Assembly: GCA_001917535.1 (NCBI GenBank)
Contig: MNEF01000039.1
Location: 1 to 44,285 of the forward strand
Direction of reading: 5' to 3'
Origin: Candidatus Rokubacteria bacterium 13_1_40CM_69_27
Lineage (GTDB): Bacteria > Methylomirabilota > Methylomirabilia > Rokubacteriales > CSP1-6
DNA length: 44,285 nucleotides
The position numbers were made by a program, and so were the translations under genes. Shown here piece after piece: positions 15,286-19,948 of the stretch. Every line of letters starts with the position of its first letter. Within the stretch, counting starts at the first letter, position 1. The notes beneath the pieces are model-generated. The model saw only the letters and a program-made list of their open reading frames with translations. It was not told where the DNA came from and did not search any database.

Positions 15286-16913
15286 CCACCGCGGCCGTCC
15301 ACCCGGTGACGCTCGAGGTCGTGCGCAACGCCCTCTACGCCATCGCCGAGGAAATGAGCGTGATCGTGATGCGCTCGGCGCGCTCACCATTGCTCAAGGA
15401 GGCGGGCGATCTTTCCTCAGCGCTCACCGATGCCGAAGGCCGCCTCATCGCCCAGGGGCGCGACATCCCGATCCACATGGGCGTCATGGGGTTCACGGTG
15501 AAGGAGCTCCTCAAGCGGGTGCCCGCCGACCGGTTCAGGGATGGCGACGTCTGGTTCCTCAACCTCCCGGAGATCGGAGGCAACCATCTCCCTGACGTCA
15601 AGGCGGTGCGCCCGATCTTCGCCGAGGGCCGGCTGGTGGCGTTCGCGATCAGCCTGGCCCACTGGGCCGACATCGGTGGGACCGTGCCCGGCAGCTACGT
15701 CCCCTGGGCGACCGAGTGCTACCAGGAGGGATTGCGGCTGGCGCCGATCCGCCTCTTTTCGTCGAGCGGACCCGAGCGAGAGGCGATCGAGGTGGTCCTC
15801 TCCAACGTCCGGGGCCGTGAGGAGCGAGAGGGTGACCTCTTCGCGCAGTTCGCCGCCAACGATGTGGCGGCCCGCCGGCTCGGCGACCTGTTCGCGCGCT
15901 ATGGCGCTGAGATCCTCACGGCCTGCTTCGACCGGCTCCAGGCGGAGTCGGAGATGCAGATGCGTGATGCCCTTCGCGCGCTGCCGGACGGCACGTATGA
16001 CGGCGAGGACTGGCTCGACGACGACGGCGTGGAGGCGCGACCGATCCGGATCAAGGTGCGCATCACCATCGCGGGCGACGAGGCGACGTTCGACTTCGCC
16101 GGCACGGACCCTCAGGCGCGCGGCCCGGTCAACACGACGCCGTTCATCGCCTGCTCGTCCGTCTACTACGCCATGAAGGCGCTGATCGCTCCCGACGTGC
16201 CGCCGAACGACGGCTGTTACCGTCCGCTCCGCGTCGTCGTGCCGCCGCGCACGGCGCTCGATCCCGATCCCGACCGCCCCGTGGTCGGCGGGAACCACGA
16301 GACCTCGCAGCGGGTGGTCGACGCCATTTTCAAAGCGCTGGCGTCGATCCTGCCCGACCGGGTCGCCGCCGGCGGGCCGACGACCTCGGGTCTGCTCCTG
16401 TTCGGCACTCGGCTGGCGGATGGCCGCTGGGCGATCCTCTACGAGGTTCACGGAGGCGGCGAGGGCGCGACGGCCGCGAAGGACGGCGTCTCGGCGGTAC
16501 GCGTGCACATGTCGAACGTGATGAACACGCCGACCGAGGTCATCGAGAGCGAGTACCCCTTTATCATCGAGGAGCACGCCCTCCGCCCGGGCTCGGCGGG
16601 CGATGGCCACCACCGCGGCGGGCTCGGCTTGCGTCGGGCGTACCGTGTGCTGGGGGAGGACGTGACGCTCACCACCATGTTCGAGCGCCGCCTGATCCCG
16701 CCCTGGGGCCTCGACGGGGGCGGTGACGCCCTGCCATTTCGCGTCACCATTTATTCGCAGACGGGAGAGCGGGTGGTCGGCGGGAAGGAGACCCTCGCCC
16801 TCCGGCGCGGCGATCTCGTGCTGGTCGAAACGTGTGGCGGCGGCGGCTACGGGGCGCCGGCCGCGCGGGCGGCCGAGCTCCGGGCCCGGGATCTTCGGGA
16901 AGGCTACGTATGA
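15282..16913 (+). CDS. hyuB: Hydantoinase B/oxoprolinase family protein HyuB
   Basis: This 543-aa partner of HyuA carries the Hydantoinase_B domain (start HPVTLEVVRNALYAIAEEM) with the conserved segments GDVWFLNLPEIGGNHLPD, DPQARGPVNTTPF and GGNHETSQRVVD. A glycine-rich C-terminal CGGGGYG region is also present. The ATG at 15282 overlaps the HyuA stop (ATGA), and its own stop overlaps the next SDR start in the same way, so the three proteins are probably made in fixed ratio. HyuA and HyuB together form the cytoplasmic ATP-dependent ring-opening or carboxylating enzyme. No third small carboxylase subunit, as in acetone carboxylase, is present, which favours hydantoinase/oxoprolinase activity. 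Confidence 0.9.
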   Translation: MTTAAVHPVTLEVVRNALYAIAEEMSVIVMRSARSPLLKEAGDLSSALTDAEGRLIAQGRDIPIHMGVMGFTVKELLKRVPADRFRDGDVWFLNLPEIGGNHLPDVKAVRPIFAEGRLVAFAISLAHWADIGGTVPGSYVPWATECYQEGLRLAPIRLFSSSGPEREAIEVVLSNVRGREEREGDLFAQFAANDVAARRLGDLFARYGAEILTACFDRLQAESEMQMRDALRALPDGTYDGEDWLDDDGVEARPIRIKVRITIAGDEATFDFAGTDPQARGPVNTTPFIACSSVYYAMKALIAPDVPPNDGCYRPLRVVVPPRTALDPDPDRPVVGGNHETSQRVVDAIFKALASILPDRVAAGGPTTSGLLLFGTRLADGRWAILYEVHGGGEGATAAKDGVSAVRVHMSNVMNTPTEVIESEYPFIIEEHALRPGSAGDGHHRGGLGLRRAYRVLGEDVTLTTMFERRLIPPWGLDGGGDALPFRVTIYSQTGERVVGGKETLALRRGDLVLVETCGGGGYGAPAARAAELRARDLREGYV

Positions 16914-17698
16914 GCCGGAAGCTCGAGGGTCGGATGGCGATCGTCACCGGCGCGGCGAAAGGGATGGGCCGCGACATCTGCCTCACGCTCGCGCGCGAGG
17001 GCGCGCATCTCACGCTGGCCGCCCGCGAGGTCGAGCCGCTCAAGACGCTCGCCGTCGAGATCGAGGCGCTCGGCCGGCGCGCCAGGGTGCAGCCGACCGA
17101 CGTCACCGACGAAGCCTCGGTGGCGGCGCTGGTCGCCGCGACGCTGGCCGCCTTCGGCGGCCGGATCGATATCCTCGTGAACGCGGCCGGGATCACGGGA
17201 CCGATCGAGACGCCGGTCTGGGAGATCAAGGCCGAGGACTTCGACACGGTGCTGGCCGTCAACCTGCGCGGGACCTTTCTGCCGATCAAGCACGTGCTGC
17301 CGACGATGATCGCCCAGCGGTACGGGAAGGTCATCAATATCAGCGGGACCTCGGGGCTCCGCGGATACAAGTACCGGGCCGCCTACTCGTCATCCAAGTG
17401 GGCGCTTCGCGGCCTCACGCGGACCGTGGCGCTCGAGGTCGGTCCCTACAACATCAACGTCAACGCGGTCCATCCGGGCATTGTGGCCGGTGACCGGATG
17501 GACAGGCTCTGCCGCGAGAAGGCGAAGCAGCGCGGCTGGACTCCCGAGCAGGTTCATCAGGAGTACGTGAACGAGATGGCGCTGCGCCGTGTCACGACAG
17601 CACAGGACGTCGCCAACGCCGTCTGCTTTCTCGCCTCCGACGATTCGCGAAACATGACCGGACAGTCGGTCACGGTGGACGGCGGCTGGGACGTCTAA
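16910..17698 (+). CDS. SDR-family oxidoreductase (stop codon completed by IS insertion)
   Basis: This 262-aa classical SDR has the cofactor motif TGAAKGMG at residues 14-21, NAAG instead of the usual NNAG, ISGTSG with the catalytic Ser, YSSSK with Tyr and Lys, and the terminal TGQSVTVDGGW. It overlaps hyuB by ATGA, so it belongs to the hyuAB unit. It probably handles a hydroxyl/keto intermediate. Its stop codon TAA is made of the TA target dinucleotide of the IS630 element plus the first base of that element. Without the insertion the reading frame would end with TAG at the same codon, so the protein is unchanged. Confidence 0.88.
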   Translation: MSRKLEGRMAIVTGAAKGMGRDICLTLAREGAHLTLAAREVEPLKTLAVEIEALGRRARVQPTDVTDEASVAALVAATLAAFGGRIDILVNAAGITGPIETPVWEIKAEDFDTVLAVNLRGTFLPIKHVLPTMIAQRYGKVINISGTSGLRGYKYRAAYSSSKWALRGLTRTVALEVGPYNINVNAVHPGIVAGDRMDRLCREKAKQRGWTPEQVHQEYVNEMALRRVTTAQDVANAVCFLASDDSRNMTGQSVTVDGGWDV

Positions 17699-17723
17699 TG
17701 AATCTCGCAGAATAGATTAGAGG
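17698..17723 (+). repeat. IS630 left terminal inverted repeat
   Basis: The 26-bp end starts ATGAATCTCGCAGAATA. Its complement is at 18798-18823 with three mismatches, all in the inner part. Confidence 0.9.
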
Positions 17724-17728
17724 CCATG

Positions 17729-18768
17729 TCAGAATCGCAACCCAGCGTGGTGCAGGAAGGCGAAGGCCAAGCGGGGTTGACAGCGAATGCGGGCAAAGCC
17801 GCGACGGAGCGGGGTACGGAGCGTGGTGAGATCGGGCGCGCACACGTTGGCAAGTTCGCACGTCTTAACGGTACCCCAGACTTGTTCGACGGGGTTCAGG
17901 TCCGGAGCATAGGCCGGCAGGCGCTCGACGGTGAGCCACCGTCGTTGTCGTCGCAGGAAGTCGAGCATGCGACGGCTCTTATGCCCGCCCAGCCCATCCC
18001 AAATGAGGATGACTCGACCGCCTCGGAAATGCCGGTGGAGCGCCTGCACGAACGTGATGAGCACGCCGTCGGTGTAGCTGCCCGCGTGCGTCTGAAAGAA
18101 AAAGCGACTGCGACGGCCGTCCCAGCGAAACGCCAAGGCGCCCGCGATGGAGAGGCGTTTCCAGTTCCCGCCGGTGGGCGTCAGGATGGGCGTCTCGCCG
18201 CGCGGGGCCCAGGTGCGGCGGACGACGGGCTGCTGGGAGACCCCGCTTTCGTCCTCGAAGAGGAGCCACGCGTGTTGCCGTCGGGCGTTTTTTTTAGGGC
18301 AGCCCAGCGCCGGCTCTTCCACTGCGCGATCGCGGCCTCGTCCCGTTCGCGCGCCTGCCGGGCCGGGCGTTGGAGCGACCAGCCTAAGGCCCGCAGCACC
18401 CGCCAGACATGGCCGGGATGATGTGCGACGCCGGTGCGGCGCTTGATCAGGGCCGCGACGCGCGGCAACGTCCACAACGCCGTCGTGAACCCATGCGCCT
18501 CGGGGCCGGCCCGCAGCGCGCGTTCGATCCCTCGCAACTCCCGCGGCCCGAGCCGCGGCTTGCGGCCCGCCCGGCCCGCCGCTTTCAGCCCCTTCCGCCC
18601 CTCGGCGCGCCAGGTCTGATACCAGTGATTCGCGGCCGCAGTCGTCACGCCCAACTGCCGCGCCACCGCGGCCTGCGATTCGCCCCGCGCGAACAGCCGC
18701 GCGGCCTGGAGCCGGCGCGCTTCCAACGCAGCAAAATCCCGACGGGATCCGCGGCTCGGAGTTGGCAT
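17729..18768 (-). CDS. IS630-family transposase, two frames joined by a -1 frameshift
   Basis: The DDE transposase is encoded in two overlapping frames. The upstream frame (18768 to 18181) carries the helix-turn-helix region, including ESQAAVARQLGV and HWYQTWRAEG. The downstream frame holds the catalytic core: FEDES (first Asp), LIWDGLGGHKS (second Asp) and APDLNPVEQVWG (Glu, about 36 residues after the second Asp), ending at 17729. On the coding strand CTA AAA AAA ACG at 18297-18286 is a classic A AAA AAA slippery site. Sliding back one base there joins the helix-turn-helix domain to the DDE domain, giving one product of about 346 aa. Programmed -1 frameshifting is known in IS630 elements, so this is probably functional rather than broken. 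Confidence 0.87.
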
Positions 18769-18797
18769 GAATCAGCATGGCATCGTACCCGTGAAAT

Positions 18798-18823
18798 CCA
18801 CTAACTTATTCTGCGAGATTCAT
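18798..18823 (-). repeat. IS630 right terminal inverted repeat
   Basis: This is the inverted partner of 17698-17723. It is followed directly by the duplicated TA at 18824-18825. Confidence 0.9.
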
Positions 18824-18872
18824 TAGTGTGCCGTCCTCGAAGTGATGGTACGGGCCGGCCAGCACACGGCGT

Positions 18873-19025
18873 CGGGGCCGACGGGCGCGTGCGGCAGGGG
18901 TCGCGGGACCGTTCCCGCCCGCTGGCCACGGACCCCGCGTCCCGAGGTGGAGCCCAGCCGCAACGTGGCAGCGGACGCGTGCCGCGTGGTCCCGCGGTCC
19001 CTGCCGCACGTGCCCGTCGGCCCCG
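18873..19025 (+). ncRNA. Long plus-strand RNA hairpin between SDR and molybdenum hydroxylase genes
   Basis: An inverted repeat with 38-nt arms (18873-18910 and 18988-19025) has three non-identical positions, and every one is a G-U pair in plus-strand RNA. The same positions would be C/A mismatches in minus-strand RNA. Inside it, 18919-18930 and 18964-18974 form a second 11-bp stem with a single bulged G, leaving a 33-nt loop. Before the IS arrived this structure lay about 50 bp after the SDR stop and 60 bp before the next start, so it is probably part of that transcript. It could be a terminator-like, RNA-processing or stability element. It has no U tract. The fold is read by eye; no RNA family is recognised. 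Confidence 0.55.
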
Positions 19026-19084
19026 CTGGCAGCGGCGCGAGCGCGGCGATCGTTGACATGACTTCGCAGACGGAACACTAGCCG

Positions 19085-19948
19085 ATGCATCCGTTCGAGT
19101 ACCTGGCTCCGGAGTCCCTCGACGAAACCCTGGCGATCCTGGCCCGGTATGGCGACGAGGCGAAGGTGCTGGCCGGCGGCCAGAGCCTCCTTCCGATCCT
19201 CAACTATCGCCTCGCCCAGCCAGCCCACGTCGTGGACATCAACGGGCTCCCGCTCGAGGGCATGCGCCTGGAGAACGGCCGCCTGCGTTTCGGCGCGCTC
19301 ACGCGCCACGCGACGCTTGAGGAGTCGGCCGACATCAGGCACCACTGCCCGCTGCTGAGCGAAGCCGCGCGGCTGATCGGCAACGTGCGCGTGCGGTCGC
19401 TCGGCACGCTGGGCGGAAGCCTGGTCCATGCCGACCCCGCGGCGGAGCTACCGATGGTCATGCTGGCGCTCGACGCCCGCTTCACGCTCGCCAGTACTCG
19501 TGGTGTGCGGACGGTGCCGGCTCGCAGCTTTTTCACGGGCTATCTCTCGACGACGATCGAAGCGGACGAGCTTCTGACCGAGATCGACGTGTCGGCGACG
19601 CCGGCCATGGGCTACGCGGTCGAAGAGATCTCTCGGCGCGCGGGTGACTTCGCGATCGTCGCCGTGGCCGCGCTGGTCAGGATCGACCGCCGCGGCCGCG
19701 TGGACGACGCTCGCCTCGCCTTCGCAGGAGCCGCGCCGACGCCGGTGCGGGTGTCACAGGCCGAAGAGGTCCTCTCCGGCCACGAGCCGACGGTCGAGCG
19801 GGTGGCGCAGGCGGCCGCGGCGGCGCGCGCCGCGGCGCAACCGGAGTCCGACACCTTCGTTTCTGCGGCCTACCGGAGGCTGCTCTCTGGGGTGCTGGCG
19901 CGGCGGGCCTTGGCGCGGGCCGTCAGCCGCGCCCTGGAGGCGGCATGA
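19085..19948 (+). CDS. FAD-binding (medium) subunit of xanthine dehydrogenase-family hydroxylase
   Basis: This 287-aa subunit carries FAD between the iron-sulfur and molybdenum subunits. Family motifs are the FAD pyrophosphate loop AGGQSLLP at residues 31-38, the second loop TLGGSLVHADPAAE near residues 110-123, and the C-terminal CO-dehydrogenase flavoprotein domain. It resembles CoxM/XdhB-type proteins. The ATG at 19085 has only a weak GGAA upstream. Its stop overlaps the next gene by ATGA. The three-gene order FAD, 2Fe-2S, Mo matches other molybdenum hydroxylases. It lies downstream of the IS element and the long hairpin. Confidence 0.92.
   Translation: MHPFEYLAPESLDETLAILARYGDEAKVLAGGQSLLPILNYRLAQPAHVVDINGLPLEGMRLENGRLRFGALTRHATLEESADIRHHCPLLSEAARLIGNVRVRSLGTLGGSLVHADPAAELPMVMLALDARFTLASTRGVRTVPARSFFTGYLSTTIEADELLTEIDVSATPAMGYAVEEISRRAGDFAIVAVAALVRIDRRGRVDDARLAFAGAAPTPVRVSQAEEVLSGHEPTVERVAQAAAAARAAAQPESDTFVSAAYRRLLSGVLARRALARAVSRALEAA

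Follow-up and report, generated by a model that had tools for sequence, protein, structure and literature searches.

The window analysed here, 44,285 nucleotides of a contig from Candidatus Rokubacteria bacterium 13_1_40CM_69_27, contains a long hairpin between a short-chain dehydrogenase (SDR) gene and the gene for the FAD-binding subunit of a molybdenum hydroxylase, and the question it raises is whether the hairpin is a structured RNA, a piece of a mobile element, or both. It is the top entry in the window's inverted-repeat list, and its core stem, supported both by the inverted-repeat search and by covariation across copies, has its left arm at 18873-18910 and its right arm at 18988-19025 (plus strand). 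The 38-nt arms form 35 Watson-Crick pairs and, read on the plus strand, three G-U pairs (18887-19011, 18900-18998 and 18901-18997). A first-pass annotation made from the letters alone had described complementary 38-nt arms in which all three non-Watson-Crick positions are G-U on the plus strand, lying between the SDR and molybdenum hydroxylase genes, and the inverted-repeat search and the gene coordinates agree with it. It had recognised no RNA family, and likewise an Rfam search returned no match at the gathering score and, up to E 5, meaningless matches only.

The same annotation held that the hairpin folds only as plus-strand RNA, and had proposed folding both strands as a check. The folds of 18826-19084 are indeed far beyond dinucleotide shuffles, but on both strands and not on the plus strand alone: the minus strand (-169.8 kcal/mol, z -6.3) folds almost as well as the plus strand (-171.9 kcal/mol, z -5.9), so the claim is wrong for the window copy. 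Across 104 copies, single-copy minimum energies showed no difference between strands, and single-sequence fold energy was set aside as an uninformative guide to the folding strand. An inner bulged stem that had been described within the hairpin is present in the window copy's own fold, but the common fold of all copies arranges the apical part otherwise.

Outward of the core arms, pairing continues to 18826 and 19078 as imperfect terminal inverted repeats (TIRs) of about 22 bp, flanked by TA. The left repeat, GTGTGCCGTCCTCGAAGTGATG, occupies 18826-18847 on the plus strand and the right one, the reverse complement GTGTTCCGTCTGCGAAGTCATG, 19057-19078 on the minus strand; both were found by pattern match and are present in other copies, and for the left one decoy windows gave 0 matches. 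Together they bound a MITE-like element of 253 bp (18826-19078, plus strand; GTGTGCCGTC ... GACGGAACAC), whose ends are conserved among copies in its own and other genomes and which consists of core and TIRs only, with no transposase gene. Between the core arms lies an apical domain (18911-18987, plus strand) that in the copy alignment is near-invariant across genera (GGAGCCCAGCCGC..., GACGCGTGCCGCG...).

The element is inserted between the SDR stop codon and the hydroxylase start codon and ends 6 nt before the latter. At its right end stands a CTAG (19078-19081), as at the ends of most g1 copies, containing the right copy of the TA duplication (19079-19080), and the ATG of the hydroxylase gene (19085-19948, plus strand) follows 3 nt past it. 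The left copy of the TA duplication (18824-18825) is common to the right TA of an adjoining IS630-type insertion sequence of 1,126 bp (17698-18823, minus strand), identified by the inverted repeat of its ends and by a DDE_3 domain and, in another frame, HTH domains. This IS630 is inserted in the TA of the element's left CTAG, which it splits, its own left TA lying at 17696-17697. The SDR gene (16832-17698, plus strand) ends in a TAA created by the IS630 junction, which would be TAG if the IS630 were absent; with both insertions removed, the gene would end GAC GTC TAG, the hydroxylase gene starting three bases on. At the homologous locus of genome G005 the SDR and hydroxylase genes nearly abut (GACGTTTGAGCG...) and there is no element, a junction that looks as would be expected of an empty site, in a diverged relative and not as a clean empty allele. 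The adjoining IS630 is a single copy in its own genome, and was rejected as the element's partner on account of that copy number and of its ends (CTAATGAATCTCGCAGAATA...), which differ from those of the element. Its DDE domain is read in one frame and its HTH domains in another, close to eight consecutive A on the coding strand, which may mark either a frameshift site or a broken transposase gene.

About seven copies of the element, 84-91% identical and with both ends fitting one TIR pattern, occur in the window's own genome, and a dozen or more in its nearest relative. The copies have in common the ends C-TA-GTGTTCCGTC...CGAAGTCATG and the reverse complement, with CTAG on both sides; in g1, g4 and g5 most of the complete copies have TIR and CTAG at both ends, and shorter derivatives are found in g1 and g14. 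In one own-genome copy (contig C35; L035:1163-2275) the core is split by an IS110-type element (DEDD_Tnp_IS110, Transposase_20).

A covariance-model search in which the best candidates, at most 29 per genome, were scored found relatives of the core in at least 26 genomes, of 57 in the same family and 95 in the phylum, all of them Rokubacteria of one family. Several genomes hold 20-47 core copies; a strict 45-nt motif counts as many as 47, in G022, with 34 in G078. Among 84,980 named species genomes a 44-nt motif matched Rokubacteria MAGs only, whose records point to soil depth series and groundwater. Neither a plasmid collection nor a phage collection gave a match to the core, and a plasmid or phage origin was rejected on that ground. 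The flanks of separate copies are mostly unrelated to each other, so the element is not specific to hyuAB or molybdenum hydroxylase genes.

A candidate autonomous partner is found in related genomes. G089 carries a complete 1,145-bp IS630 with a DDE_3/HTH transposase, whose CTAG-associated TIRs are 2-3 mismatches from the element consensus, and at a contig end in G012 lies a transposase gene of IS630 type whose right end matches the element consensus at 31/31 bp; the two transposases are 90% identical. No autonomous copy with matching ends was found in the window's own genome. The element is thus short and without a transposase, has TIRs matching an autonomous IS630, duplicates TA within CTAG and exists as dispersed copies, as a MITE does. 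These features are good evidence, as far as sequence goes, that the hairpin forms the central part of a non-autonomous IS630/Tc1-mariner-type MITE, apparently moved by an IS630-type transposase. Supplied in trans, such a transposase would cut the element's ends and paste it into the TA of a CTAG. The first-pass annotation had taken the hairpin to be unlike anything a transposon end leaves, which is contradicted by its position inside a TIR-bounded, TA/CTAG-flanked element with many scattered copies. It had also named scattered genomic copies with terminal repeats as what would refute its reading and mark a mobile palindrome; such copies were looked for and are present, so by its own measure the hairpin is one.

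Mobility leaves the core to be explained. We suggest, as the best and a fairly probable reading, that this IS630-mobilised MITE carries a lineage-specific structured RNA (or single-strand) core. In a 57-copy alignment the core spans about 155 nt and 96.3% of its stem cells are paired; 25 of the 44 stem pairs have changed on both sides, a number reached in 0 of 500 shuffles. All five pairing measures exceeded 500/500 shuffles and lay far above slid controls, the test being favourable to the structure in that it was derived from the same alignment. In the apical helices all variation is one-sided, with no two-sided changes, which makes the inner fold provisional. The apical part, about 95 nt, is conserved in sequence; the long stem is near-perfectly paired though its sequence changes fast.

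The way in which the stem changes is itself informative. Comparison of orthologous copies gave 143 stem pairs in which both sides had changed and Watson-Crick pairing was kept, versus 47 changed on one side to G-U or A-C, in a tally that includes some non-orthologous pairings in double-copy loci and one control pair; at L153/L190, with flanks 93% identical, there are six two-sided and zero one-sided changes. So many two-sided changes suggest that one arm serves as template for the other. Such arm-to-arm correction may create much of the covariation, which alone is therefore no proof of RNA selection, and it makes perfect arms weak evidence for it. Covariation, for which a covariance model had been proposed as a check, is very strong in the long stem, but arm-to-arm correction could give the same, and the apical helices show none. 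The case for RNA selection hence rests on strand bias and apical conservation.

Among the long-stem deviations of the 104 copies, G-U outnumbers A-C by 91 to 32 (15 columns versus 4); counted once per genus, pair and type the figures are 59 and 32 (p 0.006), a moderate effect. The direction of the host gene was rejected as the origin of this bias, G-U to A-C being 30:8 where the plus strand is read and 37:11 where the minus strand is read, and so was a C-to-T mutation skew, as the loops (unpaired columns) are skewed the opposite way. The consensus fold energy is -92.7 for the plus strand and -81.2 for the minus strand. Host genes are more often read into the element's R end, and many mRNAs therefore carry the minus strand, not the one favoured by the G-U bias. 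That the bias does not depend on host-gene direction suggests a molecule whose reading follows the orientation of the element itself, either RNA or single-stranded DNA. The first-pass annotation was right that some feature of the fold is under strand-specific constraint, and its reading of the G-U pairs as a trace of selection on RNA structure gains from their excess across copies and genera; the exclusion of a transposon drawn from them was mistaken.

Retention of the core in place is the second line of evidence. In the window's genus 21 of 24 ends are recognisably TIR-like, versus 8 of 112 in genus g9 (decoy windows, 0); most g9 copies are without transposon ends, and several species of this genus have the core at the same sites. 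In 16 of 18 ortholog comparisons, several of which are not independent, the apical domain shows higher identity than the neighbouring genes do at third codon positions, a result that gene conversion between copies could inflate. Strand bias and conservation in situ together provide moderate evidence of a structured RNA passenger in the MITE, and the interior resembles an RNA that has not been described before, kept even where the jumping ends have decayed. Selection would maintain a core that folds, whether in RNA or in single-stranded DNA, when the element is read in one set direction; the simplest role of the core would be that of a stable structure just behind stop codons shaping mRNA 3' ends, or of a small RNA of its own. 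A more specific version, which we put forward tentatively and regard as possible rather than probable, is that the core is a multi-copy, Rokubacteria-specific non-coding RNA with its own function, which spread by means of IS630 ends, came under host selection behind stop codons after those ends decayed, has its stem renewed by arm-to-arm copying and is able to flip in place.

A simpler account would make the element a MITE and nothing else, its core being junk between the ends, its palindrome kept by arm copying (template switching or gene conversion) and its conservation a product of the spread of a few masters. The dispersed copies, TIR-flanked in several genera, suit this account, as does the surplus of two-sided stem changes, which is more than stepwise compensation would leave. 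It does not, however, predict the excess of G-U over A-C, the apical conservation at orthologous sites or the survival of the core without ends in g9. Moreover, G021 contains MITEs of about 180 bp with the same ends, a different GC-rich interior and no core (L276, L278), which shows that mobility does not require the core. We consider this account somewhat unlikely.

The strand-fixed bias, independent of host transcription, would fit equally well a hairpin of single-stranded DNA that a recombinase recognises, in the manner of attC or of REP/TnpA, and in which the fold of one DNA strand is selected. The core is inverted between species at no fewer than five orthologous sites (L205/L208, L191/L210, L161/L178, L072/L183 and L052/L198; one of these between genera), as recombination between the arms would produce, and such inverted cores, with the divergent copy pairs, recall REP arrangements. 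The complete copies, however, have IS630-type double-strand TIRs and a TA duplication, and a recombinase hairpin seems to us improbable. A host cis-regulatory RNA of the hyuAB/SDR/molybdenum hydroxylase operon, such as a riboswitch-like hydroxylase leader, would suit the site 6 nt short of the start codon, but this very improbable reading was rejected because the copies are dispersed beside mostly unrelated genes, behind stops more than before starts, and homologous junctions such as that of G005 lack the element, Rfam again offering no match.

As regards siting, copies of the core-carrying element are found after stop codons more often than ahead of start codons, and the gene pairs flanking them are convergent in 23 cases and divergent in 1. 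When genes were called by a simple method relying on third-position GC, TAG accounted for 65 of the 113 stops lying no more than 75 nt from a core and for 34 of 97 elsewhere (p 0.0014). Away from cores, some 300 kb of fetched sequence contained 40 CTAG sites, of which 9 coincided with a predicted TAG stop. CTAG is scarce in these GC-rich genomes and frequently coincides with a TAG stop. The first base of the element is G and its last base C, which rebuilds TAG at both ends, and insertion after a gene should therefore be harmless. A scan of the element for an intrinsic terminator (a GC stem then a U run) and a sigma-70 promoter found none, and an intrinsic terminator was rejected for want of a GC stem followed by a U run. 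Our literature search on IS630 found no report of siting at TAG stop codons, and that on MITE repeats in Rokubacteria nothing relevant. Targeting of CTAG at TAG stops with the stop rebuilt at both ends would be a clear example of how a mobile element could insert beside genes harmlessly. Should the core prove to be a functional RNA, it would be a transposon-borne structured RNA that different species of an uncultured soil and groundwater phylum have kept at orthologous sites though the ends were lost, and comparison could then test how a mobile hairpin turns into a host RNA.

Several known repeats are comparable. RUP, the repeat unit of pneumococcus, is thought to be mobilised by IS630-Spn1, and like the present element is short, dispersed and tightly folded, with IS630-like TIRs and a TA target; it differs in being 107 bp long and is not described there with a long conserved core outlasting its ends (PMC2229807, PMC3049150). 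The element and its apparent IS630-type partner fit the RUP model (PMC2229807) by analogy, whereas its CTAG/stop-codon siting, GC-richness and lineage set it apart. In IS630 of Shigella sonnei, which is autonomous, unlike the present element, the target is likewise TA within 5'-CTAG-3', according to the title of Tenzen and Ohtsubo 1991 as cited in PMC2170065. Yersinia YPAL/RU-2, ERIC and Neisseria Correia/NEMIS are also palindromic MITE-like repeats; their RNA hairpins affect mRNA, ERIC being found at gene 3' ends and Correia/NEMIS being cut by RNase III (PMC2229807, PMC10969869). The present element belongs to another host phylum, and no sequence relation to these was found (Rfam without match). 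Conserved RNA structure is also known in the bcr1-bcr18 repeats of the Bacillus cereus group. These are mobile repeats, 100-400 bp long, confined to their lineage and present in tens of copies, but are linked to a TTTAT motif and not to TA/CTAG, and no IS630 partner is mentioned there (PMC6542083).

Two further observations concern individual loci. L150 (G083) and L160 (G074) are 96-98% identical although their genomes are assigned to different genera, which reflects either recent transfer or misbinned contigs. At six loci (L095, L152, L185, L188, L192 and L196, some of them mutually orthologous) two cores lie close together, and in all six they are divergent, with their R ends outward.
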